A stretch of 41,589 bases of DNA, taken from the IMG/VR virus record IMGVR_UViG_3300043444_000373, positions 1 through 41,589 of that record. One strand, given 5' to 3'. Below are positions 13,478 through 40,316 of the stretch, piece by piece. Made by a program: the position numbers and the translations under genes. Below the pieces are notes generated by a model. That model was given only the letters and a program-made list of their open reading frames with translations, made no database searches and was not told the DNA's origin. Source of the stretch: a virus. Each line of letters starts with the position of its first letter. Position 1 is the stretch's first letter.

Positions 13478-13486
13478 TAGTTAAAT
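13458..13486 (+). promoter_or_regulatory. Probable promoter of the tmRNA
   Basis: TTGACG at 13458-13463, a 17-base spacer, TTAAAT at 13481-13486. It lies in the end of the upstream gene and would start transcription near 13493, just before the tmRNA acceptor piece. Confidence 0.5.
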
Positions 13487-13492
13487 AACAGT

Positions 13493-13557
13493 ATTGTTGT
13501 AATTCCTTCAAAGCGAAGGCATGTTGGACGGCGGTTCGATTCCGCCCAGGTCCACCA
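13493..13557 (+). ncRNA. ssrA: Permuted tmRNA, acceptor (3') piece
   Basis: The tRNA-like 3' half lies upstream of the 5' half, the hallmark of two-piece permuted tmRNA. T stem GGCGG (13530-13534) and CCGCC (13542-13546) enclose TTCGATT. The acceptor strand CAGGTCC (13547-13553) pairs fully with GGGCCTG at 13624-13630, including the G3-U70 wobble read by alanyl-tRNA synthetase; A and CCA follow. A hairpin CCTTC/GAAGG lies at 13505-13519. The 5' end is estimated. The intervening segment (13558-13623) is closed by a 12-pair helix (13557-13568 with 13609-13620) and would be cut out. Confidence 0.9.
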
Positions 13558-13623
13558 AAAGAATTCTTCACCCTGTATAGAGACAGACAAGTGCTATAGA
13601 CTATACTAAAGAGTTCTTTTGAG

Positions 13624-13834
13624 GGGCCTGACAAGGTTTCGACAGCGTGAGATAGTAGAGACGGCAACACGGTAGGCGATGACCGTAAATCAAGCAAAAC
13701 CTATAAATGCAAACGAAGACGCATTTGACTTCGCAGCACTAAGCTTCACAGGTAACACTGTGGGTGGTCGTGTTGCACTAGCAGCCTAAGAAACTGCAAG
13801 TCGGGGGTAGCTATACCTTCTTACCCAAAATAGT
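13624..13834 (+). ncRNA. ssrA: Permuted tmRNA, coding (5') piece with 26-codon tag
   Basis: The mature 5' end is GGGCCTG at 13624. The tag reading frame begins with the resume codon GCA at 13709-13711 and runs 26 codons to TAA at 13787-13789. The tag starts ANEDAFDFAAL and ends RVALAA, so it carries the usual ANxxx start and the LAA-type degradation end, but is long compared with the 10 residues of E. coli. The role is rescue of stalled ribosomes by trans-translation and marking of the product for proteolysis. A G-rich pseudoknot-like 3' region follows, then a strong terminator. The 3' end is estimated. Confidence 0.92.
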
Positions 13835-13860
13835 AAAAGTGGCCTTCGGGCCACTTTTTT
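13835..13860 (+). terminator. Intrinsic terminator of the tmRNA
   Basis: AAAAGTGGCC (13835-13844), loop TTCG, GGCCACTTTTTT (13849-13860). A strong stem with a stable tetraloop and a T tract. Confidence 0.92.
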
Positions 13861-13861
13861 A

Positions 13862-13890
13862 TTGACTTCTTAGTATTTTCACTATATACT
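13862..13890 (+). promoter_or_regulatory. Sigma70-like promoter for the outer-membrane barrel gene
   Basis: TTGACT at 13862-13867, a 17-base spacer, TATACT at 13885-13890. It gives a leader of about 65 bases that contains GTGTGTTTTCC...ACACAC complementary segments, possibly a stabilising hairpin, before the AAGGA site. Confidence 0.75.
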
Positions 13891-22783: not shown

Positions 22784-23803
22784 ATGCGTATCGAAGACGA
22801 AGTCAAACTAGACTTCAAAGATGTCTTGATCCGTCCCAAGCGTTCTACTTTATCTAGCAGAAAAGAAGTAGATCTAACACGCACATATAAATTCAAACAC
22901 AGCGGCCATAGTTGGACAGGAGTGCCAATTATGGCATCAAATATGGACGGTGTTGGAACTATAGGTATGGCCAGGGCATTATACAAACATCAACTGTTTA
23001 CCTGCCTTGTTAAAAATTATAACGAAGACGATCTTTTCGACCTAACAGGTAAGTTCGGAGGCAAGTATTTTGCTGTCAGCACAGGAACTGGCGAAAAAGA
23101 TTTTCAGCGTCTAGGTAGGATCATTAATTCTTATCCAGAAATACAATTCATTTGTATCGACGTGGCCAACGGATACAGTGAACGTTTTGGTGATTATGTA
23201 GCAAGTGTTAGAAATGCTTGGCCAGATAAAACTATTATCGCCGGTAATGTGGTTACCGCGGATATGACACAGGAGTTAATTTTACGTGGCGCAGATATTG
23301 TTAAAGTGGGCATTGGCCCTGGTAGCGTTTGCACTACTCGTATCCAAACTGGTGTGGGCTACCCACAGCTTAGTGCTATCATTGAGTGTGCCGATGCCGC
23401 TCATGGTCTTGGCGCTCATATTATTGCTGATGGCGGATGTGTTTGCCCTGGTGATGTTGCTAAGGCTTTCGGCGCTGGTGCGGACTTTGTAATGCTAGGC
23501 GGCATGTTAGCAGGTCACGACGAAGGCGGTGGTGAAGTTAAAGACGGAATGATTACATTCTATGGAATGAGTTCTGATACTGCTATGGAAAAACATCACG
23601 GAGGTGTTGCTAATTATCGCTCTTCGGAAGGTAGAACAGTTCAAGTAAAATACAAAGGTTCCGTTGACGATACAGTGTTGGATCTGTTAGGCGGATTAAG
23701 ATCTACCTGCACCTATGTAGGAGCACCGACGCTCAAACAACTTTCGAAATGCACTACATTTATCAGAGTGAACAGACAAATCAATGATGTATTTGTAAAA
23801 TAA
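22784..23803 (+). CDS. guaC: GMP reductase-like enzyme (IMPDH/GMPR family)
   Basis: A 339-residue TIM-barrel enzyme. The catalytic loop is [11 protein letters not shown] with nucleophile C183, preceded by [11 protein letters not shown] and followed by [20 protein letters not shown]. The segment [24 protein letters not shown] and the 339-residue size without CBS domains fit GMP reductase (GMP + NADPH to IMP + NH3 + NADP) better than IMP dehydrogenase. In a phage this would rebalance purine nucleotides from RNA breakdown toward dATP. AAAGG precedes the ATG. Confidence 0.92.
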
Positions 23804-24502: not shown

Positions 24503-26392
24503 ATGTCTAAGATCATCGGTATTGACCTCGGCACCACCAATTCATGCGTGGCCATCATCGAGGCAGGAAATTCCAAAGTTATTGAAAATTCAGAAGGTGC
24601 TAGAACTACACCTAGTATCGTTGCCTATACCACAGATGAAGTGTTAGTAGGTGCGAGTGCAAAAAGACAAGCGGTTACAAATCCTAAAAATACAGTCTAT
24701 GCCGCTAAACGATTAATCGGTCGTAAGTTTACCGAAAAAGAAGTTCAAAAAGATTTAGACCTTATGCCATACGAAATCTTCGAAAGCAAAAACGGAGATG
24801 CATGGGTTAGGGCACAGGGCAAAGAATTAGCACCACCTCAGATCTCTGCAGAAGTTCTTCGCAAGATGAAGAAAACCGCAGAAGACTATCTCGGTCACGA
24901 AGTAACACAGGCAGTTATCACTGTTCCGGCTTACTTCAATGACCAACAACGTCAAGCTACTAAGGACGCAGGACAGATCGCAGGTTTAGAAGTTCTGCGT
25001 ATTATCAACGAACCAACTGCGGCTGCTCTAGCCTATGGCGTTGACAAAGCCGATAAACAAGATCGCAAAGTTGCTGTCTATGACCTAGGTGGTGGAACAT
25101 TTGACGTTTCGATCATCGAAATCGCAAACGTAGATGGAGATAAGCAGATTGAAGTGCTATCAACCAACGGTGACACATTCCTGGGTGGTGAAGACTTTGA
25201 CCAGCGCATCATGGATTACCTAGTTGACGAGTTCAAGAAAGAACAAGGTGTCGACCTAACCAAAGATACATTAGCTCTACAGCGTCTTAAAGAAGCTGCC
25301 GAAAAGGCTAAGATTGAACTATCTAACAGTTCACAGACTGATGTTAACTTGCCTTATATCACAGCAGATGCAAGTGGTCCTAAGCACATGAACATCAAGA
25401 TCACACGTAGCAAGTTAGAACAACTTGTTGAAGATTTAATTAATCGTTCACTAGCACCTTGCCGAACAGCATTGAATGATGCTGGTATTTCAGCAAGTGA
25501 TATTGACGAAGTTATCTTAGTTGGCGGTCAGACACGTATGCCTAAGGTGCAGGAAGAAGTTGAAAAACTATTCGGCAAAGCACCTCGTAAAGATGTCAAC
25601 CCAGACGAAGCCGTAGCAGTAGGTGCGGCCATCCAGGGTGCTGTTCTAGGTGGTGATCGCAATGATGTTCTACTACTTGACGTCACACCATTGAGCTTAG
25701 GTATTGAAACACTAGGCGGAGTGATGGCTAAGATCATTCAAAAGAATACAACTATTCCTACCAAAGGACAACAGACATTCTCTACAGCAGAAGATAATCA
25801 ACCCGCGGTGACTATCAAAGTTTTCCAAGGTGAGCGTGAACTTGTTCAACATAACAAGTTACTAGGCGAGTTTAATCTAGAAGGCATTTCTCCGGCACGT
25901 CGAGGTATGCCACAGATTGAAGTTACCTTTGACATCGATGCTAACGGCATTATGAATATCTCAGCCAAAGATAAATCAACTGGTAAGGAAAACAAGATCA
26001 CTATTAAGAGTGACAGTGGACTAAGCAAGGAAGAAATCGAACGCATGGTTCGCGACGCTGAAGCCAACGCAGAGGCAGATAAAAAAGCACGTGAATTAAT
26101 CGATGCTAGAAACTCTGCAGAAGCACAGATGCACGAAGTCCGCAAGGATCTTGAAGAATTCCGTTCAGAGTTATCTGAAACAGAAATCTCAGATATTGAA
26201 AAGGTCCTAGCAGATGTTGAAACAGCTTGTAAAGGAGATGACGTAGCGGCCATTAAAGCAGAACTAGAAAAGGCTGTTCCTGCTATGAAAACTCTTTTAG
26301 AAAAGCGACAGGCTAAAGAACAGTCACAGACTGCTCAGCCTGCACAAGATGATGTAGTCGACGCTACCTTCACAGAGAAGAAAGACGACTAA
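24503..26392 (+). CDS. dnaK: Chaperone DnaK (Hsp70)
   Basis: A 629-residue, full-length Hsp70. Nucleotide domain: [13 protein letters not shown] (phosphate 1), [13 protein letters not shown] (phosphate 2), [12 protein letters not shown], and [11 protein letters not shown] (adenosine). The linker [10 protein letters not shown], the beta substrate domain and a helical lid follow. The end, [14 protein letters not shown], is like the conserved bacterial tail (DVVDAEFE). No DnaJ or GrpE is encoded nearby, so host co-chaperones would be used. Full-length DnaK in a phage is unusual; it may aid virion folding or replication. AAGGAGA precedes the ATG. Confidence 0.97.
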
Positions 26393-26399
26393 TCATATA

Positions 26400-26418
26400 G
26401 GGGCACCTTATGGGCCCC
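26400..26418 (+). terminator. Hairpin after dnaK, weak terminator or leader of hsp20
   Basis: GGGGC (26400-26404) pairs with GCCCC (26414-26418). Only a weak T-rich stretch (TTGTTCTT) follows, so termination may be partial. Confidence 0.4.
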
Positions 26419-26447
26419 AATTGTTCTTACTTTAAAAGGAGACTATT

Positions 26448-26879
26448 ATGAACAACTTAACAAGACTAGACGCTCTAAATAGAGCACTTATTGGTTTCGA
26501 TACAATGTTTGATCAAATGGAACGCCGTTTCGCAAACAGTGTATCTAATAACTATCCCCCACATAACATTATCAAGACTGGTGATAATCAGTATGAGATT
26601 CAAATAGCAGTTACTGGTTTCAGTAAATCTGAAATATCTGTGACTGTTGAAGATAATGTTCTTGTGATCAAAGGTGAAAGTATGACCACAGATTATGCTC
26701 CAGAAGCATACCTGCATCGTGGACTGGCTACTCGAGATTTCGCTAAAGAATTTCCATTAGCTGAACATATCGAAGTAGTAGGTGCAGAGACTCAAAACGG
26801 AATGTTAACGATTAAATTAATTCGAAATATTCCAGAATCTGCAAAGCCTAAAGTTATTGACATTGTAGACATTAAGTAA
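26448..26879 (+). CDS. Small heat shock protein Hsp20 (IbpA-like)
   Basis: A 143-residue alpha-crystallin-domain protein. N-terminal arm (GFDTMFDQMERRF), the domain from about residue 35 to 130 (YEIQIAVTGFSKSEISVTVE, GLATRDFAKEF, the NGMLTIKL end), and a C-terminal tail. This ATP-independent holdase binds unfolding proteins. Hsp20 is common in T4-type cyanophages and related marine phages. Here it sits between dnaK and clpS, a probable protein-quality cluster. AAAGGAG precedes the ATG. Confidence 0.93.
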   Translation: MNNLTRLDALNRALIGFDTMFDQMERRFANSVSNNYPPHNIIKTGDNQYEIQIAVTGFSKSEISVTVEDNVLVIKGESMTTDYAPEAYLHRGLATRDFAKEFPLAEHIEVVGAETQNGMLTIKLIRNIPESAKPKVIDIVDIK

Positions 26880-26886
26880 TAAAATA

Positions 26887-26909
26887 TAAGGGGAGGCAAC
26901 TCCCCTTAT
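26887..26909 (+). terminator. Hairpin between hsp20 and clpS
   Basis: ATAAGGGGA and TCCCCTTAT form a 9-pair stem around GGCAAC. The T tract is poor, and the end of the stem overlaps a late-type promoter, so termination efficiency is uncertain. Confidence 0.5.
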
Positions 26910-26914
26910 AAATA
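26907..26914 (+). promoter_or_regulatory. T4-type late promoter candidate before clpS
   Basis: An exact TATAAATA 17 bases before the ATG of clpS at 26932, followed by an ACGGAG ribosome site. Confidence 0.55.
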
Positions 26915-26931
26915 TCAGAAACGGAGTAGAT

Positions 26932-27231
26932 ATGACCACCGAAGCGAAAATAGAAGAAAAAGTCGTAACTATTTTACAACCTCCAAGCCTATGGAAAGTT
27001 GTATTTCTAAACGATGATCAAACACCCATGGAATTGGTCATAGAACTATTAACTAATATTTTCAAACATTCAGAAACAAGGGCTAAAGAAATTACTCTTG
27101 AGATCCACGAAACTGGGAGCGGAATAGCAGGCATCTTTACACATGAGATCGCCGAACAACGTGGAATCGAAGCGACACAAGTCGCAAGACAAAACGGATC
27201 GCCATTACGCATACAGGTAGAACAGGAATGA
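26932..27231 (+). CDS. clpS: ATP-dependent Clp protease adaptor ClpS
   Basis: A 99-residue adaptor that delivers N-degron proteins to ClpAP. Conserved features: the N-degron pocket N-D-D in VVFLNDDQTPMELV, the His in EIHETGSGIAG, and the helix of IAEQRGIEATQVA. The disordered N-terminus (MTTEAKIEEK...) needed for ClpA engagement is present. In bacteria ClpS also slows ClpAP degradation of ssrA-tagged proteins. The phage carries a tmRNA too, so it may influence both routes. Its TGA overlaps the heme oxygenase ATG. Confidence 0.92.
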   Translation: MTTEAKIEEKVVTILQPPSLWKVVFLNDDQTPMELVIELLTNIFKHSETRAKEITLEIHETGSGIAGIFTHEIAEQRGIEATQVARQNGSPLRIQVEQE

Positions 27232-27773
27232 GTTTAAGAGAAATTACCAAAGACCTTCATCACGAAGCAGAAAAAACAAAATTCGCAAAATTGCTGTTAA
27301 GCGGCAAGATTGAAAAAGCCGATTACAGAAACTATCTTTATAATTTAATGGCGGTTTATGATCCTATCGAATGGTATTGTAACCGTCAAGGATTTCTAGA
27401 TACCATGCTAGATCTTCCTCGTCTAAAAGCGATCTATGCAGACTTTGTAGAATTAGACGATGGCACATACTGCTATCTGACACCAGCAACATTAGAATAT
27501 CAAGAATATCTACACAGGATCGGCAATGATCCAACACGTAAGCATTTAGTCAAAGCCCACTTATATTGTCGCCATATGGGTGACTTGTTCGGCGGACAGA
27601 TTATTAAAAAACAAGTAGCACATATCAGTAGCGGTAAGTTTTATGATTTTGAAAATGCCGATGATATGAAAATGTCTATTCGAGAAATACTCACAGATGA
27701 TCTAGGAGACGAAGCTCGTGTAGCATTTAAGTATGCTATCAAGATGATGCAGGATCTCTACAATGGAGAGTAA
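27228..27773 (+). CDS. Heme oxygenase
   Basis: A 181-residue all-helical enzyme that opens heme to biliverdin, CO and iron using reduced ferredoxin. The proximal ligand is probably H11 in DLHHEAEKTKF (pattern H-x2-A-E), and the distal helix is HMGDLFGGQIIKK, matching GDLSGGQ of Ho1 enzymes. It overlaps clpS upstream and the bilin reductase downstream (10 bases), giving a substrate-product gene pair as in cyanophages. The host need not be photosynthetic. Confidence 0.92.
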   Translation: MSLREITKDLHHEAEKTKFAKLLLSGKIEKADYRNYLYNLMAVYDPIEWYCNRQGFLDTMLDLPRLKAIYADFVELDDGTYCYLTPATLEYQEYLHRIGNDPTRKHLVKAHLYCRHMGDLFGGQIIKKQVAHISSGKFYDFENADDMKMSIREILTDDLGDEARVAFKYAIKMMQDLYNGE

Positions 27774-28454: not shown

Positions 28455-29399
28455 ATGAGAGCATTTGAAATAATCACCGAAGACGCACAAACCAAAAGAA
28501 TGGTTCTGAAAGCATTGGGTAAATTACCCGACGAAGCACCGATATTCCCTCAGGTTTATAAACAAATTGTTGGAGAACCTCTAGGAAATCGCATGTCTAA
28601 TTATATTAATTCTAGAGGGGATCAGGATGCTATAAAGGCTGCAAAATGGTTAGTTCAAACTATTCCTACATTGGGTGATGCTAAAGAAGTAAAAGAATTT
28701 ATTAAAAAGTTTTCTAACCCAGAATTTGATCCTATTAATTCAAAAGCTCTAGTGCCAAGCGGCGGAATGCAACAGCCGGCTGAGATACTTTCTATAGTTA
28801 CAGATCCGTTTGCGAAAAAACTATTTGAAAAAATATTCCACGAATTCAGCGGTAAAACCGATGCTGGCCCGGGTGAGGCAGCACTGGCTATTTTAAGTCC
28901 TAACATTACTTACGGTTCGCCGGGAGATATCGTCGTTAACGGAATTAAAATCGAAGTAAAAGCAAGTCGTTCGGCCAAAGGTTCTGCCGGTAGGATATGG
29001 GATATGCCGATCAATCAAAAGCCTGCACTAAAAATAGTAGAACCTTTAGGTATTACTAGTTTCACAGTATTAGATGGTGAACAACCTTTCCCTGATCCTC
29101 AATTAGCAAAAAGTTTTATAGAAGCTGTGTCTGAAGGCTGGTTCGGTGAAGTATATCCAGATTTAGTTAGTAAATTTGGAAAACCCGGGTTCAAAGAAGC
29201 GTGGCATACACACGTATTTGATACTTATAAACAACACGGTGGTTGGACTGGTGTTTTAGCACTAGGGCTTACAACTTTCCAATATGTTGAAACAGGCGAA
29301 CAGTTTGCCAAGTATATGAAAAAATACAACCATGGTAATCTAATCAAAGCCAACGAAAAACAAAGTCGAGGACTAGCTCCTCAAATAATGGTAAAATAA
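28455..29399 (+). CDS. Nuclease-fold protein with capsid-targeting-like N-terminus
   Basis: A 314-residue protein starting MRAFEIITEDAQTKR, which matches the pattern of T4 capsid-targeting leaders (MKTYQEFITEA). Residues about 140-180 hold GPGEAALAILSPNITYG, then GDIVVNGIKIEVKASRS: an E, then D, then E-x-K arrangement typical of PD-(D/E)XK nucleases. A late-type promoter precedes it. A nuclease packaged in the head and injected with the DNA is a reasonable inference. It could instead be a packaging or head-completion protein. No closer family is recognised. Confidence 0.65.
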   Translation: MRAFEIITEDAQTKRMVLKALGKLPDEAPIFPQVYKQIVGEPLGNRMSNYINSRGDQDAIKAAKWLVQTIPTLGDAKEVKEFIKKFSNPEFDPINSKALVPSGGMQQPAEILSIVTDPFAKKLFEKIFHEFSGKTDAGPGEAALAILSPNITYGSPGDIVVNGIKIEVKASRSAKGSAGRIWDMPINQKPALKIVEPLGITSFTVLDGEQPFPDPQLAKSFIEAVSEGWFGEVYPDLVSKFGKPGFKEAWHTHVFDTYKQHGGWTGVLALGLTTFQYVETGEQFAKYMKKYNHGNLIKANEKQSRGLAPQIMVK

Positions 29400-29462: not shown

Positions 29463-29909
29463 ATGTTTAAAAGAGCACTAGTATTATTGTCACTGGTCTC
29501 TGCTAGTAGTATAGCTCAAGCAGAGCTAGTTCATAATTTCCAAAGTCCTGCCTTTATACCAGGCAATGGATACAGTCAGCACGTTCTTTCTATCTATCAA
29601 TTAGAAGAAAATAAAAAGAAAGAAATCAAAGCTGAAGAAGCAGCCGCTATCGCAAAAGCCGAAGCAGCGGCCAAACAAACCAATCTTTCAAAGTTCTTAG
29701 TAAACGTAGAAGCACGTATCTACGCACAGCTATCTAAACAATTAGCTGATCAAATGTTTGCCGAAGGTAGCGGAACAAGCGGAAGTATGGATTTTCAAGG
29801 GACCAGTATAAGCTGGAGTAAATCAGCTACTGATGTTACCTTAACTATTATAGAACCCACTGGTAATCGAACAGAGATTACAGTTCCAATAGCGAGCTTT
29901 GCATTCTAA
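29463..29909 (+). CDS. csgF: CsgF-like curli assembly protein
   Basis: A 148-residue protein. Signal peptide MFKRALVLLSLVSASSIAQA, then ELVHNFQSPAFIPGNGYSQH, matching the mature CsgF start (F-R-N-P-N-F-G-G-N) that inserts in the CsgG pore. A middle helix rich in Ala, Glu and Lys (about residues 48-75) and a beta-rich C-terminus (VTLTIIEPTGNRTEITV) follow. CsgF couples secretion to nucleation of curli fibres at the outer face. Its TAA overlaps the csgG ATG. CsgE is not seen. Confidence 0.88.
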   Translation: MFKRALVLLSLVSASSIAQAELVHNFQSPAFIPGNGYSQHVLSIYQLEENKKKEIKAEEAAAIAKAEAAAKQTNLSKFLVNVEARIYAQLSKQLADQMFAEGSGTSGSMDFQGTSISWSKSATDVTLTIIEPTGNRTEITVPIASFAF

Positions 29910-31141
29910 TGAAACGACTTTTACTATCCTTGTTGATAGCAGCATCCTTAACCGGATGTGCTCATATTCACATGGATGTATCTAAAGAAGAGCCGGTGGC
30001 ATTAAAAGCAAAAGAAAGTTTGTTTAATAGTTTACCTGATCTAGATGGACCGCCGATCACTATCGCGGTTTACGGATTTTTAGATAAGACTGGGCAAATG
30101 AAGCCCAACGATAAATTAGCTGTGTTCAGCAAGGCTGTGACACAGGGTTCTGAAGTGTTCTTAATTAAGTCACTACAGGATTCAAAGAATTGGTTTAAGG
30201 TGGTTGAACGTGTCGGGTTAGATAACCTCGTAAAGGAAAGACAATTGATTCGCAACCAACGGGAAGTTTACGAGGGCAAAGATGCTAGGCCCCTTAAACC
30301 AATGACAGTAGCTGGAGTGATGATCGAAGGTGGTATCATCGGTTATGACTCCAACATTCGCTCCGGCGGTAATGGAGCGAGATTCTTAGGTATTGGCGGA
30401 AGTCAACAATACAGGGTAGATGAGATTGTAATATCTATGCGACTGGTTAGTGTCAACAGTGGCGAAGTATTGATAACCAATGCTGTATCTAAGACGATCT
30501 ATAGCACTCAACATAACGTAGGTGTCCTTCGTTTCGTTGACGCTGGCACAAAAGCTCTCGAGCTGGAAAACGGTGCGGCACTTAACGAACCAACTACCTA
30601 TGCTGTTCGTGTAGCTATAGAACAGGCAGTGTATGATATGATCATAGAGGGAGAAAAGAAAGGTCTTTGGAGATTTAAAAAACCAAAACCTGTAGTAGAA
30701 AAAGCAGTAGCCCCTACAGTCATAGAACCACCCAAGCCTGAAACAAAGGAGGAAAAGAAAGATGAGTTGGTTCAACCACAAACCCAGCAGACACCCAAAG
30801 AAGAGCCAGCAGCAACAGAGCCCGCAAAGTCCGCAGGTTCCGGAGATCAGCGAATCTCAACTACCTCTGATGGAATCTCGAAGGCTGATGCACCTGTATC
30901 TACAAAACAAGAACAAAAAGGAACGATAGTAGACTACGTAAACATTAGACGAGAGAAGTATAGAGCCAGCGAACCGTTGGCTAAACTGAAACCTGGAATC
31001 GAGGTTGAAGTTATCGAACAAGAACGTTGGTTTGTTCGTGTTCGTTTTCAGCAAGTAGAGGGTTGGATACCAAGTCAGTTTATTAAGGTGCATAAGAATA
31101 ATAATCTAGCACCAAGGAGCGATCAAAATGATCAGAAGTAA
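29909..31141 (+). CDS. csgG: CsgG-like secretion channel with C-terminal SH3 domain
   Basis: A 410-residue lipoprotein. Lipobox LTGC (C17), then the CsgG fold: ITIAVYGFLDKTGQMK, WFKVVERVGLDNLVKERQLI, GVMIEGGIIGYDSN, QYRVDEIVISMRLVSVNSGE, about residues 45-255. E. coli CsgG is about 277 residues. Here a Pro/Glu/Lys linker (about 260-335) and an SH3-like domain (GTIVDYVNIRREKYRA through GWIPSQFIKV, about 338-395) are added. SH3b domains often bind peptidoglycan or glycans, so this may anchor the channel. The frame overlaps the curlin-like gene by 14 bases. Confidence 0.9.
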   Translation: MKRLLLSLLIAASLTGCAHIHMDVSKEEPVALKAKESLFNSLPDLDGPPITIAVYGFLDKTGQMKPNDKLAVFSKAVTQGSEVFLIKSLQDSKNWFKVVERVGLDNLVKERQLIRNQREVYEGKDARPLKPMTVAGVMIEGGIIGYDSNIRSGGNGARFLGIGGSQQYRVDEIVISMRLVSVNSGEVLITNAVSKTIYSTQHNVGVLRFVDAGTKALELENGAALNEPTTYAVRVAIEQAVYDMIIEGEKKGLWRFKKPKPVVEKAVAPTVIEPPKPETKEEKKDELVQPQTQQTPKEEPAATEPAKSAGSGDQRISTTSDGISKADAPVSTKQEQKGTIVDYVNIRREKYRASEPLAKLKPGIEVEVIEQERWFVRVRFQQVEGWIPSQFIKVHKNNNLAPRSDQNDQK

Positions 31142-31799
31142 GACAGGCCGTGGCAGTGCGCCGAGAAAATTACTTGCAATCCTAGTGGCATCTGGAATGA
31201 TGTCATCGGGCGTCTATGCCAATGACGTATATATGGAACAAATTGGCGATAACTCAACTGTTTCTATAACACAGACCGGAGCAGGAAATTTAGTCAACGG
31301 TAATGTGGGCGGAACAGGTAACGCAGACGATGCAGCATTAATTAAAGGTGATCTCAACAACGTCACTATCAGTCAAATTGGTGCTAGCAATACTTTAAGC
31401 ATGATTATCAACAACGAAACCAACGGAACAGGTTCTACTGTAGTTGTTTCAGCAGACGGTAGCAATAATAATCAAACCATTGGTTGCGGCACAGCGTTAA
31501 GCTCTAGCTGTAACGCCAGCGTTATTAGATCAGAAATCACAGGTAATAATAACAACACAGTTCAAACTTTAAGCGGTGGAGTAACGCAGAGTAAAATTTC
31601 TGTAAATGGAAATTATAACAATGTAACACACACAGCTTCAGGTGTTGGATTACATTCGGGAGAAATTACGGTTAGCGGAAGTGGAACTAGCAGTATAGCT
31701 AATGCAGTAACACTAACACAGAGTGGAGCACTTACCAAGAATGCAGTTATTACCAGCAACGGTTCTAATAATAACGTTACTGTTACTCAGTCCGATTAA
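31128..31799 (+). CDS. Curlin-like amyloid subunit
   Basis: A 223-residue protein. The signal peptide ends near VYA before NDVYMEQIG. It has curlin repeats with the S/T-x-Q-x-G-x-x-N pattern: VYMEQIGDNSTVSITQTGAGN, TISQIGASNTLSM, and later Asn/Ser-rich units (GSNNNVTVTQ). Repeats are less regular than in CsgA, and a cysteine pair lies at about residues 120-130. It probably forms a surface fibre through the CsgG channel. No separate nucleator or CsgC-like inhibitor is seen. The last 58 bases overlap the FecR gene in another frame. Confidence 0.82.
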   Translation: MIRSKTGRGSAPRKLLAILVASGMMSSGVYANDVYMEQIGDNSTVSITQTGAGNLVNGNVGGTGNADDAALIKGDLNNVTISQIGASNTLSMIINNETNGTGSTVVVSADGSNNNQTIGCGTALSSSCNASVIRSEITGNNNNTVQTLSGGVTQSKISVNGNYNNVTHTASGVGLHSGEITVSGSGTSSIANAVTLTQSGALTKNAVITSNGSNNNVTVTQSD

Positions 31800-32841
31800 T
31801 ACGTTAGCCGGAGTCGGGCGAGTAACAGAACAGACAGGGCCAACAGAAATATTTAGAAACAAGAAGAGTATATCTTCTCAGGTCAACACGACTGTGGAAA
31901 TGAACGATGCTGTGAGCACAGCTAGAGCCAAAGCACAACTAACTTTTGAAGATAAGACTACAGTTAAACTTACAGAACATAGTAAGATTATTATAGACGA
32001 CTTTGTCTATGATCCAAAGAAAGGTGCAGGCAAACTAGGAATGAAGATGGCGCTGGGAACAGCTCGTTATGCTAGTGGGCAGATTGCTAAGAACAATCCC
32101 CAGCAGGTAGCGATTAAGACACCTACAGCTAGTATTGCCGTTCGTGGCACAGACTTTTCAATGACTGTCGACGAACTCGGCCGTAGTCTTGTAATGTTAT
32201 TGCCTAGTTGCGATGAAAAGGGATGCGTAACAGGAGCCATTGAAGTTAGCAACTTCGGTGGGGTTGTTTTGTTAGATGTTCCTTATCAAGCTACTCTGGT
32301 CAACAGTGCATATGCACCCCCTTCGGAGCCAACTGTAATAAAAATTGATCAAGCGAATATCAATAACATGTTGATCATTAGTAAACCAAAAGAAATTTCT
32401 GAAGACACAACTGCTGGAACTACTAAAAAAGAAAAAAGTCTGTTAGATTTTAATGAACTAGACGTAGACCTATTAAAATATTCAAAGCTAGATGAAAATG
32501 CTCTAGATAAAAAATCTGAATTAGATCGAAATGATCTTAATGCAGATCTGCTAGAATACAGTGCCTTGAATGAACTAGATAGACAAAACGCAAGTCTATT
32601 GGCAGACGAATTAGATAATCCTATATTACCGGGTTATAGTTCTAATAAATCTTTAGGATTAAATTATTACTTTAATGACGACCAAAGCAAAGTCACCTTA
32701 TACAAAGCAGGCACACATAATGCCACAGTGACATTTGATACTACCAAGAGTGCAACCTTTACATTGATACAAGATGGCCAAACCATCATACAGAATGTCA
32801 ACAAAGGCTCTACATCAACTATAACTATCAGCCAGCAATAA
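31741..32841 (+). CDS. FecR-domain protein with signal peptide
   Basis: A 366-residue protein from ATG 31741 (GTG 31723 is in frame). Signal peptide MQLLPATVLIITLLLLSPIN ending TLA. Residues about 23-150 are a FecR domain (GPTEIFRNKK, AQLTFEDKTTVKLTEHSKII, KTPTASIAVRGTDF). A repetitive Leu/Asp/Asn region (LLDFNELDVDLLKYSKLDEN and similar) follows, then a beta-rich end. FecR-domain proteins are often encoded with CHASE2 cyclases in bacteria; one lies 2.5 kb downstream. The start codon lies inside the curlin-like gene and lacks an obvious ribosome site. Confidence 0.8.
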   Translation: MQLLPATVLIITLLLLSPINTLAGVGRVTEQTGPTEIFRNKKSISSQVNTTVEMNDAVSTARAKAQLTFEDKTTVKLTEHSKIIIDDFVYDPKKGAGKLGMKMALGTARYASGQIAKNNPQQVAIKTPTASIAVRGTDFSMTVDELGRSLVMLLPSCDEKGCVTGAIEVSNFGGVVLLDVPYQATLVNSAYAPPSEPTVIKIDQANINNMLIISKPKEISEDTTAGTTKKEKSLLDFNELDVDLLKYSKLDENALDKKSELDRNDLNADLLEYSALNELDRQNASLLADELDNPILPGYSSNKSLGLNYYFNDDQSKVTLYKAGTHNATVTFDTTKSATFTLIQDGQTIIQNVNKGSTSTITISQQ

Positions 32842-32904: not shown

Positions 32905-35301
32905 ATGAAAAAAACAATAATAGCCACTATAGTGGCAGCAATGGTATCGGCGTCGGCGTTTGCCCAGACAGCTAGCGTTGACGGGACCTCAGGAATGGGT
33001 CTATTACAAAACGACTGGGTAAAAGCAGGCGTTAATACGAACACAGGAACATTGGGATCAGGCGGTGGAACTAGTCCTGGACTATTGTTCGATCCTACAG
33101 GCACGGGAACATTCAATGCTGCCTATGATTACCTAACACCTGGAGCACCTTTTGATGGGTTCTCTTTAAAAGTTGGCACAGAAAATAAAACAAATAATAA
33201 CATGGGCACTGAACAAATCACTGGTCAGGGTCTTACACTTAGTAATACTAATACAACACTAACTTGGACAGGTAGTGCCGCATATAGCGGAAACAACTGG
33301 TCTGTAACTAATGCCTATACACTAGGAGTAGGTAAACCTTACATTGACATTACCTCTACTATCGTAGCAGGCGGTGCAGCCAGTAATGTCTACTTTGCCA
33401 AGTTTATCGATCCAGACAGCCAAGGTATGCCTGGTGACAGTTCTGCCACAGACAACGTTCTAGGTTATGGTGCTATTCCATCAACTAACGTGGCGTTCTC
33501 AGAAGCCACAGTTTCTAGATATGCTCTAGGCTTGTATTCTGCGGCTTCAAACGTAGCAGCAGGTATTAACGGGTGGAACACAGATGCTGCCAGTTATATC
33601 AATGCTGACGCATCGTGCGGCACAGGAGTATTATACTGTAACGGTGACGACACTATCGGTCTAACATTTTCGTGGACTGGTGTTAACAGTGGTGACACAT
33701 TGACAGCCAGTTACGCTTATATCTTTGGACCGAGCGCATTCGGTGCAGCCAGTTCAGCAGTGACAGGCGGTGCTGGTGGCGGAACTCCTGGAACTGCACC
33801 AGGAGGTGGCACACTGGTAGACGTGGGTTCAGCGACAACCGCAGCTTCTACAGGAGGCAGCACACCTACTGTAACAGGCACAAGCACAGTCAACGGAACT
33901 CCAACTTATGCTGATACTACAGGTGATGCTGTAGTGATTTCTACTTCGTTAGTTGCAGGCGACAAACTAACAAGAAACTACAACAGCCTAACAACCACAG
34001 AAATGGGCCGTATCACAACAACACCAACCACTGTAGTTACTACCTATAGCGACAGTTCAACAACAAGTGCTGCTGGAACACCTATCACAGTTTCAGAAAC
34101 ATATTACAACAATTTAGATGTTACACATGCCGACGTAGCCACAGGAAGCACAGCTATTGGTGATGCTGTTTGGGTATCTAACGGTATCGACAACGGTAGT
34201 TTAGTTAATACATCAACTACACTAACTTCTGTAAACAACGGTAAGACATTGACAGTTTCTACATCAGGTGTTATCACAGCCAACGAGTTGTATACAATCA
34301 CAACTCCTACAAGATTTACCTATGATAGAACTACAACAACTGTGAATTCAAATGACTTTGCACCAACAAGCAGTTACACAGATACATCGTCAACAACTGT
34401 GACTAACTCAACAGTTACTGGTGATTACGATATAGTAACTAACGACAGTATTGGTCGCACAGCTAACTATGCTGTTGATGTTGGTCTAAGATCAGATCAG
34501 GTCGCAACTGCTAATCAATTACAATCTATGATGAATAGAAATCTAGAGTTTGGTAAGACTATTACCTACAAGTATTTTGATCACAGCAGAGATGGCTATA
34601 GTGGTAATTCCACAGTGTTCGGTATAGGTCATAATAAAAATATCGAAAGTGATCTAAATCTAGGATTCGGAGTTAACAAAATCACTTCACGTTTATCTGG
34701 AAATGCCAGTGCTGTAACTGCTGACACTGTGCAGTTAGGTGCTACATTGACTAAGAAAGATGTTAAAGGTTTTGATATCAGCGGAACTGTTCAACACAGC
34801 ATGAGTGACTACAACGTATCAGCGACACCAAATGTAAACATCACAACTTCAGGTGATAGCAGACTATTAGCCACACAGGCATTTAATAACAGCTTACCAA
34901 ATGTCACAGGCAAGACCACAGGTCAAGATACTAGTGTGAGCGTAAGAGCCGTTGGTCCAGCGTTAGATCCTAAAGGTATCGTTCGTCCAGTGATCGGCGG
35001 AACATACGGACAGAGGTCAGCCGGCGGATATAACGCCAACATCGACGTATTGCCAGGTGTTACTGTATCCAACAGAGTTAATAACCTTAACCAAGATTAC
35101 GGTTATGCTACTGTAGGGGCTGTAGCCAAATATGGCATAGTAAATGCTACAGTTCTACATCACACAGATGGAGTTAATCAGTATGGTGTAGGTCTAAGCA
35201 AAGAGCAAGGCGATTTAACATTCAATGTTCGCGCAGACAGATTAGAAACAAGCCAAGGCGGATCGAATGTTTACACAGCAGGTCTAGTATATAAGTTCTA
35301 A
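32905..35301 (+). CDS. Large outer-membrane beta-barrel protein
   Basis: A 798-residue protein. Signal peptide MKKTIIATIVAAMVSASAFA before QTASVDG. Residues about 20-290 are a beta-sandwich-like domain (NWSVTNAYTLGVGKPYID); 290-530 are Thr/Ser/Gly-rich passenger-like sequence. The last 270 residues form amphipathic strands ending GLVYKF, with the terminal Phe of BAM substrates. It resembles an autotransporter-type layout without a clear autochaperone region. Next to curli genes it may display a surface structure. A GGGAGCGAA ribosome leader, like that of csgF, precedes it. Confidence 0.8.
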   Translation: MKKTIIATIVAAMVSASAFAQTASVDGTSGMGLLQNDWVKAGVNTNTGTLGSGGGTSPGLLFDPTGTGTFNAAYDYLTPGAPFDGFSLKVGTENKTNNNMGTEQITGQGLTLSNTNTTLTWTGSAAYSGNNWSVTNAYTLGVGKPYIDITSTIVAGGAASNVYFAKFIDPDSQGMPGDSSATDNVLGYGAIPSTNVAFSEATVSRYALGLYSAASNVAAGINGWNTDAASYINADASCGTGVLYCNGDDTIGLTFSWTGVNSGDTLTASYAYIFGPSAFGAASSAVTGGAGGGTPGTAPGGGTLVDVGSATTAASTGGSTPTVTGTSTVNGTPTYADTTGDAVVISTSLVAGDKLTRNYNSLTTTEMGRITTTPTTVVTTYSDSSTTSAAGTPITVSETYYNNLDVTHADVATGSTAIGDAVWVSNGIDNGSLVNTSTTLTSVNNGKTLTVSTSGVITANELYTITTPTRFTYDRTTTTVNSNDFAPTSSYTDTSSTTVTNSTVTGDYDIVTNDSIGRTANYAVDVGLRSDQVATANQLQSMMNRNLEFGKTITYKYFDHSRDGYSGNSTVFGIGHNKNIESDLNLGFGVNKITSRLSGNASAVTADTVQLGATLTKKDVKGFDISGTVQHSMSDYNVSATPNVNITTSGDSRLLATQAFNNSLPNVTGKTTGQDTSVSVRAVGPALDPKGIVRPVIGGTYGQRSAGGYNANIDVLPGVTVSNRVNNLNQDYGYATVGAVAKYGIVNATVLHHTDGVNQYGVGLSKEQGDLTFNVRADRLETSQGGSNVYTAGLVYKF

Positions 35302-35367: not shown

Positions 35368-37413
35368 ATGCTGAAAAAAATCCTCACTAGCCCGTGGACA
35401 GCGGTCATAACATTGGCACTTATTGTAAGTATAAGAATCGCCGATCCTGTCTTTATAGAAAGTGTAAGACTACGTTATTTCGATACACTGATCACTAACA
35501 AAGCACCTACGGAAAATAATATCGTAACGGTTAACATAGACGAAAGTGCTTTAGACAAATATGGTCAGTGGCCGTTTAACAGAGAAGTATATGCTAAACT
35601 CATAGAAGACCTGTATAAGAGAAATGCAGGACTTGTAGTTTTTAATGTGCTAATGCCAGAGAAAGATCGTCAAGGAGGTGATGCTGCTCTAGCTGCGACA
35701 CTGAACGAATTCGCCGTGGCTGTGCCAAACATTCCTAGTGACCGTAATAAAAATAAACCTAGACAGCCCAGCACAGCAACTATAGGCGCAGAACATTCAG
35801 AAATGATCGTTACCTATCCCGGATTGATAGCTAACATCAAAGAAGTGGAACAGCGTGCCGCAGGCTCCGGCGTAGTAAACACTATGCCCGAAGTTGACGG
35901 TGTTGTCCGTCGTATGCCTTTGGTCATAGCTGTAGATGGTGTAGTATATCCTAGCCTAGCTATGGAAGCTCTGCGTATGGCTGCTGGAGATTCTACTACA
36001 CAGATAAAATTGTTCGAAGGCGGTGTAGAAAAGATGCGCATACCCGCCTTTGGTCCGATCACTACAGATCAGCTAGGCCGTGTTTGGATAGACTGGAGCC
36101 AAAAGAATAAATCTGTTCCTATGACAGCCCTACCCAAAGACTTCCAAGGGGCAGTGGTTATCGTAGGTGTGGCCGCAGCCGGTCTCGGTAATCCTGTGCC
36201 CACAGCAGTAGGATCAGTTTGGCCGCAGGACGTCCAGGCCGCTGTGTTAGGCACAATGTTTAATGGTGTGGTGATTGAAAGACCTGACTATGCCGACGGT
36301 GTAGAAATTCTAACACTGGCACTGGCAGGTATTCTATTAATATTTTTAACGAGGTATGTCTATGCGGGTTTGGCAACGACGGTTATTATTATCGGTGGCA
36401 GTGCTGTTGGCAGCTGGTATGTGTTCACTAATTATCTATGGCTATTTGACGCTACTGCCCCTGGAGTTGGCCTACTTGTGGTCGCTCTGCATGCCTACGG
36501 TGTCAAGTTTGTAAGCGAGTTCTTACAGAAGCAGGCGATTAAGAAACAGTTCGCTGGTTACTGTTCAAAGGAAGTTGTAGAACTACTACAAAATGATCCA
36601 GACCTAATCAAGCGTGGGGTGCGTAAAGACGTATCAGTTATGTTCAGTGACCTACGTGGCTTTACTCCTATCGGAGAACACTATGGTGACGATGTTGCTG
36701 GCCTAGGCAAATACATGAACGGTTATATGGATGCTATCAGTCGGCCTATATTAGATAACAAAGGAATGGTTATTAAGTATGTAGGTGATGCTAGTATGCA
36801 CATACATGGGGCACCAATTGACGACCCTAATCATGCACATACAATGATCAAAGTTGGTCTTGAAATGCTAGACGCTGTAGATCGTTACACTAAAGAAATG
36901 GAAGCACAGGGATTGCCACCTGCGGCTATGGGCTGGGGTGTTAACAGCGGTATTGGCTTTATCGGCGAGATGGGATCGACTGATCGTCACAGTTACGATA
37001 TCCTAGGTGATATGGTTTCAACAGCCGCACGTTTAGAAGCACGTTGTAAAGCCTACGGTGTGCTAAACATTGTCGGCGCCGAGACATACAACAGAACTAA
37101 GAATGATTTCTTCTACCTGATGCTGGATAATCTACAGCCCAAAGGCAAGAGTGTAGCAGACTTGATCTACACAGTATTAAGAACCAACGGCGCTGACTAT
37201 ACCAAAGATAAAGTATGGCACGATGAGATGCATGCCTTGTATAAGGCTAAAAAGTTTGATGAAGCTGCCGCTATGTGTAAGACCACCTTAAAGGGCAAGT
37301 TTGGCGGACAGATGGACAAGTATTATAAGATTTGGATCGAACGTTGTGACTTTATGAAACAACAAGACTTACCGGAGAATTGGAATGGAGAGTTTATCGC
37401 ACATGAAAAATAA
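35368..37413 (+). CDS. CHASE2-domain adenylate cyclase (class III)
   Basis: A 681-residue membrane protein. An N-terminal helix, then a CHASE2 sensor (IVTVNIDESALDKYGQWPF through GVVRRMPLVI, about residues 47-290), three membrane helices (about 305-395), and a class III cyclase domain. Metal-binding D428 (VMFSDLRGFT) and D474 (KYVGDAS), and the adenine-specifying pair K470 and D544 (SYDILGD), are present, predicting cAMP production. The transition-state Asn of the N-x3-R motif is S551; R555 is kept. A cyclase this complete is exceptional in a phage. The gene follows the OMP and FecR genes. Confidence 0.9.
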   Translation: MLKKILTSPWTAVITLALIVSIRIADPVFIESVRLRYFDTLITNKAPTENNIVTVNIDESALDKYGQWPFNREVYAKLIEDLYKRNAGLVVFNVLMPEKDRQGGDAALAATLNEFAVAVPNIPSDRNKNKPRQPSTATIGAEHSEMIVTYPGLIANIKEVEQRAAGSGVVNTMPEVDGVVRRMPLVIAVDGVVYPSLAMEALRMAAGDSTTQIKLFEGGVEKMRIPAFGPITTDQLGRVWIDWSQKNKSVPMTALPKDFQGAVVIVGVAAAGLGNPVPTAVGSVWPQDVQAAVLGTMFNGVVIERPDYADGVEILTLALAGILLIFLTRYVYAGLATTVIIIGGSAVGSWYVFTNYLWLFDATAPGVGLLVVALHAYGVKFVSEFLQKQAIKKQFAGYCSKEVVELLQNDPDLIKRGVRKDVSVMFSDLRGFTPIGEHYGDDVAGLGKYMNGYMDAISRPILDNKGMVIKYVGDASMHIHGAPIDDPNHAHTMIKVGLEMLDAVDRYTKEMEAQGLPPAAMGWGVNSGIGFIGEMGSTDRHSYDILGDMVSTAARLEARCKAYGVLNIVGAETYNRTKNDFFYLMLDNLQPKGKSVADLIYTVLRTNGADYTKDKVWHDEMHALYKAKKFDEAAAMCKTTLKGKFGGQMDKYYKIWIERCDFMKQQDLPENWNGEFIAHEK

Positions 37414-37576
37414 TTTCTACACTCCATTAGATTGGTGGATTGACTACTCTGTATGGCTTATGCTACAATATAAATTTATGTATCCGGCTAAGCTAATTGG
37501 TTACAACGATGATATGCAAAATTACTTAAAACAGTTTAGCCTTAACGGAATCAAAACTTTCAGTATTTGCAGATGA
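37403..37576 (+). CDS. Small protein of 57 residues, function unknown
   Basis: ATG 37403 overlaps the cyclase stop; GGAG lies 12 bases upstream (an in-frame ATG at 37385 is possible). The sequence begins MKNNFYTPLDWWIDYSVWLM and is rich in aromatic residues, with a partly hydrophobic centre but no clear membrane helix. Its TGA overlaps the ATG of the next gene. Confidence 0.6.
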   Translation: MKNNFYTPLDWWIDYSVWLMLQYKFMYPAKLIGYNDDMQNYLKQFSLNGIKTFSICR

Positions 37577-38283
37577 AAATTTTATTGTTTATTCTGGCCT
37601 TGTGCCTTTCCTTGACCGCACAGGGACAAAATATTACAGCAACATCTTGGATAGTAGCTAACGGTCAAGGCGATATAATCCAGAGTGAGAATATCTATCA
37701 AACTCGTAGCATAGCCAGCATCACTAAATTGATGACTGTAATAGTGATTTTAGATGCGCACCAAGATCTAGATCAGTATATAAAACCCTACACTAGAAAA
37801 GAGCTGATACAACTAGCCATTGTTCATTCAGATAACCGTGCTTCCGAAACACTGTGTCAAAATTATCCAGGCGGTAGATCGGACTGTATAAGAGCAATGA
37901 ATAATAAGGCCAAAAGCCTAGGAATGATTAACACACAGTTCACTGACCCCACTGGACTAGGTGTTATGAATTCTAGCACTGCTTATGATCTTATAAAACT
38001 GGTAAGAGCAGCAGAGCTTTATCCAGAAATTGTTTCGGCCAGTAAGATGAGTGAAGTGAAAATCAAAATTAAAAAGAAATGGTTAGTGTTCAAGAACACT
38101 AATCCTATCATAGGAAAACGTCACGATTTTATCGTTAGTAAAACTGGATGGATTCGAGCGTCTGGGGGATGTATAGTTATGATGCTAGATACAGATGTAG
38201 GTCGAAGGATCGTAGTAGTTCTGGGTTCCAAGAATACTCACACACGCATTCCTGAAGCTGAATTTATCGCTACAAAATTTTAA
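37573..38283 (+). CDS. Periplasmic D-Ala-D-Ala peptidase (PbpG-like)
   Basis: A 236-residue serine peptidase of the penicillin-binding type. Start ATG 37573 (overlapping the previous TGA) gives signal peptide MKILLFILALCLSLTAQGQ. Catalytic motifs are intact: S49-x-x-K52 in SIASITK, S86-D-N88 in VHSDNRA, and K190-T-G in VSKTGWI. Small enzymes of this type are D,D-endopeptidases or carboxypeptidases that trim peptidoglycan cross-links in the periplasm. For a phage it could loosen the wall for lysis or for envelope structures such as the curli channel. It converges on the minus-strand block with 4 bases of overlap. Confidence 0.9.
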   Translation: MKILLFILALCLSLTAQGQNITATSWIVANGQGDIIQSENIYQTRSIASITKLMTVIVILDAHQDLDQYIKPYTRKELIQLAIVHSDNRASETLCQNYPGGRSDCIRAMNNKAKSLGMINTQFTDPTGLGVMNSSTAYDLIKLVRAAELYPEIVSASKMSEVKIKIKKKWLVFKNTNPIIGKRHDFIVSKTGWIRASGGCIVMMLDTDVGRRIVVVLGSKNTHTRIPEAEFIATKF

Positions 38284-38624
38284 CTTTCGCCGCTGGCTGC
38301 TGACTTCTTATCGTCTAACTTAGAAGCATCCTCAAATTTTTGATTAGCTTCTTTTTCAACTTTCTGCTGTTCCATAACACGATCACTTTCGATGATCTTA
38401 CCACGAAGATGTAGAACAGTGTTGACCTTTTGATTTAGTCGAATAAGGTCGTTGTCTAACATACGGATACGATCGATTAGAGCGACAAGAACTGTATTAG
38501 CCTCAGAGACTACGGGTTTAACTTCAGTAGTAGCCCAAGTCCATACATACTTGATAATGTATCCCATTCCAACAGCACATACGATAGGAAACCCGTATTT
38601 GTTAATTAACTCTACTACATCCAT
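38280..38624 (-). CDS. Membrane-anchored coiled-coil protein, holin-like paralogue
   Basis: A 114-residue protein: one N-terminal helix (GFPIVCAVGMGYIIKYVWTW) followed by a coiled coil (residues about 35-75) and a charged tail. It is similar in layout and in the start (I-x-x-x-GFPI-x-x-A) to the protein at 39152-39433, suggesting duplication. Its ATG follows the previous stop directly (TAAATG). Single-helix plus coiled-coil proteins of this size include BhlA/UviB-type holin-like proteins; function not established. Confidence 0.7.
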   Translation of the reverse strand: MDVVELINKYGFPIVCAVGMGYIIKYVWTWATTEVKPVVSEANTVLVALIDRIRMLDNDLIRLNQKVNTVLHLRGKIIESDRVMEQQKVEKEANQKFEDASKLDDKKSAASGES

Positions 38625-39151: not shown

Positions 39152-39433
39152 TTAATCCCTTCTTGCGTCATTCTTTCCGTCAGCACGAGCGATACGATCA
39201 ACATCGGGTTTTAATCCAAGAGCATTTGAGACGATAGTATCAATACGAACCACATCGTGATTCATAGTTTTAACACGGTTATCTAATGCGATGATGATAC
39301 CCTGCATACCCTTTATACTGCCCAAAACTCCCTGCAACAGTAGTTTAATTGTTAAGTATACAAAATAACCGCCTGCTAATGCCACAGCGATTGGAAAACC
39401 CAAATCGCCTATTAGTTTGAAAATATCACCCAT
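39152..39433 (-). CDS. Membrane-anchored coiled-coil protein, paralogue of 38280 gene
   Basis: A 93-residue protein: MGDIFKLIGDLGFPIAVALA with a long helix (GFPIAVALAGGYFVYLTIKLLL), then a coiled coil (ALDNRVKTMNHDVVRIDTIV). Its relative at 38280-38624 has the same order. It is the first gene of the minus-strand block and has a GGAGCGAATC leader, identical to the one before csgF on the plus strand. A TATAAC box lies about 20 bases further upstream. Holin-like or envelope scaffold roles are possible. Confidence 0.7.
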   Translation of the reverse strand: MGDIFKLIGDLGFPIAVALAGGYFVYLTIKLLLQGVLGSIKGMQGIIIALDNRVKTMNHDVVRIDTIVSNALGLKPDVDRIARADGKNDARRD

Positions 39434-39521: not shown

Positions 39522-40316
39522 ATGCGTATCCAACTCGTATCCGATCTGCATCTAGAATTCGCAGACATTAATATCCAAAATCAGGACAATGCCGATGTGT
39601 TGATCTTGAGCGGAGATATCATGGTCGCTTCAAAGGTTAATAAACCCGAAAGCGAATACGGTATCCGATTCCGTAACTTCCTGAAGCGTTGTTCGTTTCA
39701 GTTCCCTCATGTTGTCTATGTGGCAGGCAATCACGAGTTTTACAGTGACGGCAAGTTTTTCCAAGGTCTCGACGAGCTTCGTGCGGCCTGCGGTGTTCAT
39801 GACAATGTCTACTTTCTTGAGCGTGATACCAAAGTCATCGACGATGTAGTATTCGTCGGCGGCACATTGTGGACTGACATGAACAAGTTTGATCCATTGA
39901 CCTTACATGCTACTCGTGACATGATGAACGACTATCGTGCCACTGTCAACGACTATGCTGGCTATCGCAAGTTAAAGCCTGCGGATACTGTGGAGCGTCA
40001 TAAGCTCACTGTAGAATACATCAAACTAGTTGTCAGTGAAAACAAAGACAAGCGTTGTGTAGTAGTCGGTCATCACAGTCCGAGTTTACAGAGTATCCAT
40101 CCTATGTATGCTCATGATAAAATCATGAACGGTGCTTATCACAGTGACCTCACTGAGATCATGTTGGACAATCCACAGATCAAATTGTGGACACACGGGC
40201 ATACACATCATCCATTCGACTATCAGATCGGAGAGTGTCGTGTGGTCTGTAATCCTCGTGGCTATGATGGTTATGAGGACACCGGTTGGAATCCTAACAA
40301 GATAATTGAAGTATGA
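39522..40316 (+). CDS. Calcineurin-like metallophosphoesterase
   Basis: A 264-residue enzyme with all metal motifs: D8-L-H10 (QLVSDLHLE), LSGDIMV, AGNHEFY, VVVGHHSP and WTHGHTHHP. Two metal ions are expected. Substrates could be nucleotides, phosphoproteins or nucleic-acid ends; this short form has no extra domain that would tell which. Its TGA overlaps the next ATG, starting a run of overlapping small genes. Confidence 0.92.
   Translation: MRIQLVSDLHLEFADINIQNQDNADVLILSGDIMVASKVNKPESEYGIRFRNFLKRCSFQFPHVVYVAGNHEFYSDGKFFQGLDELRAACGVHDNVYFLERDTKVIDDVVFVGGTLWTDMNKFDPLTLHATRDMMNDYRATVNDYAGYRKLKPADTVERHKLTVEYIKLVVSENKDKRCVVVGHHSPSLQSIHPMYAHDKIMNGAYHSDLTEIMLDNPQIKLWTHGHTHHPFDYQIGECRVVCNPRGYDGYEDTGWNPNKIIEV

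Follow-up and report, generated by a model that had tools for sequence, protein, structure and literature searches.

A lineage-conserved, non-canonical active site in the CHASE2 receptor cyclase of a phage curli cassette

A type VIII secretion cassette with a FecR gene and an adenylate cyclase gene has been described in pelagiphage podoviruses and myoviruses; the part of that report available to us gives the cassette an alphaproteobacterial affinity, finds a similar order in podoviruses, and presents a second curlin gene followed by the adenylate cyclase as a frequent, not universal, arrangement (PMC9599517). An adenylate cyclase is also annotated in the phages HTVC008M and Melnitz. A cyclase carried by a phage is thus no novelty by itself. 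Two papers, one of them on Melnitz, treat the curli genes, and the word "cyclase" is absent from their main texts (PMC9004378, PMC7029224); our literature search for phage CHASE2 cyclases, and for phage-encoded adenylate cyclases in connection with cAMP or auxiliary metabolic genes, returned nothing on this enzyme. In Sinorhizobium meliloti, as reported in the accessible portions of PMC13001267 and PMC7529298, the outer-membrane beta-barrel protein NsrA acts on CHASE2 cyclases, and the cAMP acts via Clr. In the same species, according to the available section of PMC5498481, CyaD1 lacking CHASE2 makes cAMP constitutively, and the FecR-domain protein SMc02177 is a target of the pathway and is dispensable for signal perception.

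Here we analysed a stretch of viral DNA of 41,589 nucleotides (IMG/VR record IMGVR_UViG_3300043444_000373), hereafter the window. On its plus strand lie csgF (29463..29909; 148 a.a.; Pfam CsgF PF10614, E 5.5e-16; phrog_35372, E 3.6e-43), csgG (29909..31141; 410 a.a.; CsgG at residues 50-255, E 1.9e-51), a curlin-repeat gene whose product of 223 a.a. is a candidate fibre subunit (31128..31799; Pfam Curlin_rpt, E 3e-6; no PHROG match) and then a FecR-domain gene, the succession that characterizes the cassette. The FecR gene overlaps the preceding gene and encodes at most 372 a.a. from a GTG start (31723..32841; FecR, E 7.4e-11; phrog_37870, E 7.1e-84). The same-strand run continues with an open reading frame for a secreted protein of 798 a.a. 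with a hydrophobic N-terminal segment and Phe as its last residue (32905..35301), and ends with the cyclase gene (35368..37413). This curli and FecR context had been overlooked in the earlier note. The order csgF-csgG-curlin-FecR-(second curlin or other)-cyclase is common to the window, Melnitz and HTVC008M, and the full-length cyclases of the two isolates are 45% and 36% identical, respectively, to that of the window (tblastn). Melnitz has a second curlin gene where the window has the gene for the 798-a.a. protein, which matched no Pfam family (Curlin_rpt included, at E 0.001) and no PHROG, and whose AlphaFold2 model (pLDDT 30.3) was unusable and was discarded. In addition, the CsgG of the window has an SH3 extension (SH3_3 at residues 343-393 of 410, E 1.4e-6), unlike the pelagiphage cassette as described; by annotation, the CsgG of Melnitz has about 278 a.a. 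The ORF ahead of csgF (28455-29399) had no PHROG match, and podovirus cassettes have a histidine kinase at this place, as far as the available part of PMC9599517 describes them.

Downstream of the cyclase, a D-Ala-D-Ala carboxypeptidase gene of family S11 with a TTG start (37567..38283, plus strand; Pfam Peptidase_S11, E 1.9e-39) adjoins the cassette as a possible further member; an S11 gene lies downstream in 30 of the 61 window-like loci that have at least 4 kb of downstream sequence, among the best 80 of 357 relatives. The minus strand then encodes a small protein with one hydrophobic stretch (38280..38624) and a paralogous small protein (39152..39433), both assigned to phrog_18771 (E 1.1e-29 each). 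The former also gave a weak holin match confined to residues 2-20 (phrog_4898, E 7.7e-4), and similar ORFs for phrog_18771-type proteins with a hydrophobic N-terminus stand beside the cassette in L047, L074, L075, L084, L085 and L086. Elsewhere, the window holds a run of protein-quality genes at 24503-27773, namely dnaK (HSP70, E 8.5e-259), Hsp20 (E 2.2e-17) and ClpS (E 2.1e-25), followed within the same interval by a heme oxygenase gene (E 3.5e-22), and an IMP dehydrogenase/GMP reductase-like gene (22784-23803; Pfam IMPDH, E 4e-69; phrog_9582). A tmRNA gene at 13444-13880 is permuted according to ARAGORN (Rfam tmRNA_permuted, E 3e-29; beta_tmRNA, E 2.4e-44), and the beta_tmRNA match hints at a betaproteobacterial host. 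The tRNA at 9772-9846 has a CTA anticodon (tRNA-Pyl per ARAGORN; Rfam tRNA, 49.6 bits) and may possibly read amber codons.

In class III cyclases, two Asp residues bind metal, a Lys paired with Asp, Thr or Ser specifies ATP, with Lys/Asp as the classical adenine pair, and an Asn and an Arg serve the transition state. The cyclase gene of the window is an uninterrupted frame with an ATG start that encodes 681 a.a., comprising a CHASE2 domain (residues 15-322; 35410..36333; PF05226, E 2.7e-38) and a cyclase catalytic domain (residues 420-593; 36625..37146; Guanylate_cyc, E 1.4e-15). Both matches exceed the curated Pfam cut-offs, the latter with 57.8 bits against 21.9, and the protein belongs to phrog_35576 (E 1.9e-184), a family of unknown function in PHROGs. 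The family model, the metal-binding D428 and D474, the K470/D544 pair and R555 place the enzyme in class III, and the motif formed by codons 544-551 (36997..37020) runs from Asp544 to Ser551, the latter at the position of the transition-state Asn. The reading frame, the Pfam matches and the residue positions thus agree with the earlier note in its description of an intact CHASE2 cyclase with K470/D544 and both metal-binding Asp residues, and of Ser in place of Asn at 551. Since 357 of the 359 candidate stretches from a first scan of IMG/VR encode a relative of the cyclase, chance is excluded as the source of the frame.

An AlphaFold2 model of the protein (39 aligned sequences; mean pLDDT 85.6, pTM 0.61) begins with a single N-terminal helix, which is followed by CHASE2; three long helices then lead to the cyclase domain, and the C-terminal tail is helical. 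The long helices around CHASE2 (residues 9-25, 309-329, 331-356 and 363-395) are read as membrane helices, which, together with a CHASE2 domain ahead of the catalytic domain, corresponds to a CHASE2 receptor cyclase. The top PDB match of the model was the adenylyl cyclase CyaB of Pseudomonas aeruginosa (3r5g; Foldseek E 8.4e-13; 29% identical in 192 aligned columns; TM-score 0.79, normalised by target length), which in the alignment has Thr and Asn at the positions of D544 and S551, respectively. D544 and S551 lie within or beside the least certain region of the model, and the active-site geometry is not readable from it because the loop that holds D544 (residues 536-546) has a pLDDT below 50. 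Judged by its residues, the enzyme probably makes cAMP.

To compare positions 544 and 551, we aligned 279 proteins: 240 from IMG/VR, those of the window, Melnitz and HTVC008M, six phage loci from MAG bins (three phage contigs, each held twice) and 30 bacterial loci. The IMG/VR proteins came from three scans, of which the best 80 of 357, the best 80 of 135 and the best 80 of 585 were taken, so the counts describe nearest relatives. The pair is D/S in 80 of 80 window-like rows (best 80 of 357) and in 77 of 80 Melnitz-like rows (best 80 of 135; two are truncated, and L171 is S/N), and it is S/N in 79 of 80 HTVC008M-like rows (best 80 of 585; one truncated). When the window-like and Melnitz-like rows were pooled with the window, Melnitz and the three MAG contigs, D+S was found in 162 of the 163 readable rows of these nearest relatives, for which the residue was not a selection criterion and among which one contig is counted twice, as L080 and L174. 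Ser551 is therefore neither private nor random, and a private mutation or decay of the window copy is ruled out. It is a conserved character of the lineage, always together with Asp544. The D/S site is common to the window and Melnitz, whereas HTVC008M is without it, and, because an S/N site serves the same purpose in HTVC008M-like phages, D/S is not required for the cassette. The second metal-binding residue, D474, aligned in 79 of the 80 window-like rows (best 80 of 357). In L017 (660 a.a.) an alignment gap begins at this Asp, owing to a deletion or an assembly fault; unless the assembly is at fault, not every copy can be active.

The alphaproteobacterial CHASE2 cyclases, such as CyaD1, CyaD2 and CyaK of S. 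meliloti, have the same combination of CHASE2, membrane helices and class III domain, and relatives at E <=1e-20 occur in 198 of 385 genomes of that class. Their site differs: the 28 alphaproteobacterial loci sampled have S544+N551 (26) or T544+N551 (2) and none has D+S, one further locus being truncated. Over all 30 bacterial loci the counts are 26 S/N, two T/N, one D/N and one truncated, the sole D/N locus, L090, being a non-CHASE2 match in the MAG of L085. Asn thus occupies the site in 29 of the 30 and the thirtieth is truncated, so that Ser is not the common state in this bacterial sample; a frequent Ser in active bacterial cyclases was what the earlier note had named as refuting its reading. 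Because of S551, the window enzyme is not assigned to the canonical Asn-Arg subgroup, which has Asn at the transition-state position; its class III membership stands, since active class III enzymes without that Asn are known.

The codons at position 551 bear on whether the Ser is maintained. Among 135 distinct D/S sequences (nearest relatives), all six serine codons are used (AGT 57, TCA 48, AGC 17, TCG 5, TCC 4 and TCT 4), and a FastTree of 122 rows, built with residues 541-555 left out, needs at least 32 switches between the AGY and TCN families, a count that phage recombination can inflate. The invariant Ser537 needs 29 such changes on the same tree, so S551 behaves as another essential serine. 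Asn is one transition away from an AGY serine, and it appears at 551 once in the 163 rows of nearest relatives, within the recombinant domain of L171. Ser551 thus looks selected. The cyclase as a whole is under purifying selection: the median dN/dS, obtained with our own Nei-Gojobori script from 62 pairs of moderate divergence, was 0.056 in the cyclase domain, 0.078 in the tail and 0.093 in CHASE2, and invariant columns made up 78 of 191 in the cyclase domain and 18 of 311 in CHASE2 across the 135 distinct D/S sequences (nearest relatives). In the same set, D428, K470, D544 and R555 are present in 135 of 135 sequences, and D474 in 134 of 134 readable ones.

We then built quick trees of the two domains from 59 hand-picked rows, 32 of them D/S, and for both, treekit gave a warning that long branches meet. 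In the catalytic-domain tree, the 32 D/S rows fall on one side of a branch with an SH-aLRT of 100, and no other branch of that tree is as long as this one, which leads to the D/S clade with 2.99 changes per column. In the CHASE2 tree, the HTVC008M-like S/N enzymes are neighbours of the Melnitz-like D/S enzymes, and a single D/S clade is rejected (p-AU 4.45e-5; lnL difference 75.0); larger FastTrees gave the same picture. The conflict between the trees indicates that catalytic domains have been exchanged between sensor lineages by recombination. Individual chimeras are found as well: L171 combines a Melnitz-like CHASE2 with a bacterial-type S/N domain, and L080 a window-like CHASE2 with a Melnitz-like catalytic domain. 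L174, on the same contig as L080, is a chimeric cyclase too.

Candidates for a bacterial donor of the D/S domain came down to three loci, L084, L085 and L086, in which the cassette and phage-like genes occur together in two MAGs, one of Rhodobacteraceae and one of Pirellulales. These are not bacterial donors, because their contigs carry phage-like genes (ORFs judged by eye), and they are probably of phage origin, placed in the bins of bacteria. Among 398 genomes of Pseudomonadota, a DNA pattern for Y-D-x-x-G-D-x-V-S-x-A-x-R matched a single one, namely the MAG to which two of these three phage contigs belong. The same pattern with Asn matched only two of the 398, from which it follows that the D-type is rare in Pseudomonadota and that the pattern test is low in power. 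It is conceivable, although we consider it rather unlikely, that the D/S domain represents a largely phage-confined sub-lineage of class III with a rewired site (Lys, Asp, Ser and Arg) and a catalytic or product preference of its own, shuttled as an exchangeable output module between the CHASE2 sensors of curli cassettes.

The earlier note had taken Ser551 as a sign that activity may be reduced or tuned. The fixation of Ser551 in the lineage, its pairing with Asp544 and its retention through both codon families do not support a reduction, and neither does a characterized enzyme. As the available part of PMC4215837 describes it, Ma1120 of Mycobacterium avium is an active class III cyclase that has K101/D157, the conserved Arg and Ala164 in place of Asn, and its A164N mutation drastically lowered the adenylyl cyclase activity and abolished the guanylyl cyclase activity. 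Ma1120 resembles the window enzyme in having the K/D pair and the Arg without the transition-state Asn, and differs in having Ala where the window has Ser, a comparison made by the published description only. Since Ma1120 is active with Ala and weakened by Asn, a missing Asn does not imply a weak enzyme, and, as the Asn is not required, an Asn introduced at 551 by itself would not necessarily restore activity. By analogy, the K/D pair with a residue other than Asn would form a workable active site.

A non-canonical residue at the Asn site, and a copy such as L017 that aligns without the second metal-binding Asp, might instead point to a pseudo-enzyme, in which the domain binds nucleotide or merely dimerises and passes the state of CHASE2 on mechanically, without turnover. 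We consider this very unlikely, because the 135 distinct D/S sequences conserve both metal-binding Asp residues, the Lys/Asp pair and the Arg, and the catalytic domain is more constrained than the sensor, whereas dead domains usually show the reverse. An altered or dual substrate preference, for instance one that yields cGMP or a cyclic pyrimidine nucleotide in addition to cAMP, with Ser551 and Asp544 as part of the change, would agree with the joint change of positions 544 and 551 between the D+S and the S+N groups and with the long branch to the D/S domains; K470 and D544, however, are the classical adenine pair. In the portion of PMC4886424 available, Rv1900c has His at the Asn site, and the loss of Asn is tied to a possible dual use of ATP and GTP. 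Ma1120, in contrast, acts as an adenylyl cyclase with K/D and without Asn, and changes of the K and the D, not of the Asn site, shifted its preference (PMC4215837, same excerpt). A distinct product thus appears improbable to us.

The cyclase might also be active and yet functionally unconnected with the curli cassette, the two being neighbours through joint capture from a bacterium. Of 29 bacterial CHASE2 cyclase loci with short flanks, 3 have an adjoining FecR-domain ORF, and CsgG was found near none of the 29 and in none of three wider regions, so the cyclase and the curli genes are able to occur separately. In the phages, however, the cyclase stays with the cassette, even where the cyclases are only 34-46% identical. 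Among loci with at least 6.5 kb of upstream sequence, csgG lies upstream of the cyclase in 57 of 61 window-like (among the best 80 of 357), 48 of 50 Melnitz-like (among the best 80 of 135) and 17 of 18 HTVC008M-like loci (among the best 80 of 585), and CsgG is found in 16 of 17 related phage records. Of the four window-like loci without an upstream csgG, L047 and L079 meet the contig end, and in L074 and L075 the curli genes are found downstream of the cyclase, on the other strand. Opposite strands would suit a chance association, but these two loci represent a local inversion after which the genes are still together. With the similar gene order in podoviruses (PMC9599517, in the part available), we give mere hitchhiking a low probability. 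What fills the slot after FecR and ahead of the cyclase is hypervariable: curlin-repeat-like or large secreted proteins. With ORFs chosen mechanically, the gene within 900 nt upstream of the cyclase encodes 184-1098 a.a. in 64 of 67 window-like loci (best 80 of 357).

Taken together, the class III cyclase is intact, selected and non-canonical, and it stands within a known phage cassette. We favour, with moderate confidence, the reading that it is an active membrane receptor adenylate cyclase that serves as the signalling output of the phage curli cassette and raises cAMP in the host, its D/S site being normal. The analysis establishes the domain make-up, the cassette, the residue pattern, the purifying selection and the exchange of domains; catalysis, a cAMP product, a periplasmic ligand and a host response we infer. 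The CHASE2 domain would sit in the host periplasm and would sense the state of the envelope, or the fibre, FecR or outer-membrane proteins encoded by the same cassette; the signal would pass through the membrane helices and switch the homodimeric catalytic domain, and the resulting cAMP would act on CRP-family receptors of the host. Ser551 with Asp544 would then be the normal site of a distinct catalytic lineage, moved between phages under different CHASE2 sensors, and no defect. This proposal would work much like the NsrA relay of Sinorhizobium, in that an envelope signal reaches a CHASE2 cyclase. It differs in the receptor: no cNMP-binding domain (PF00027) was found in 17 phage records, including the window and the complete isolates Melnitz and HTVC008M, whereas the same search found the domain in 10 of 14 control genomes. 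We therefore do not class the window as a member of the NsrA type but only as similar in working, and cAMP would have to act via host receptors. Host reprogramming through CRP, which the earlier note had proposed, is plausible.

As to the partner of the sensor, FecR is weakened as a candidate because SMc02177 is dispensable for perception in S. meliloti (PMC5498481, in the section available), and a beta-barrel partner is only a guess, since the 798-a.a. neighbour has neither a family match nor a usable model. A metallophosphoesterase encoded at 39522-40316 (phrog_1649) was considered as a phage cAMP phosphodiesterase and left out of the model, as it bears no cAMP-specific mark; PF00149 matches occur in 16 of 16 related records.

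If the cyclase is active, these phages would install a complete envelope-to-cAMP path in their hosts along with a fibre-export system. The exchange of domains shows that, in the genomes of phages, the sensor and the output can be separated as units, and the pairing of D/S and S/N enzymes offers natural variants for probing the role of the transition-state Asn in class III cyclases.
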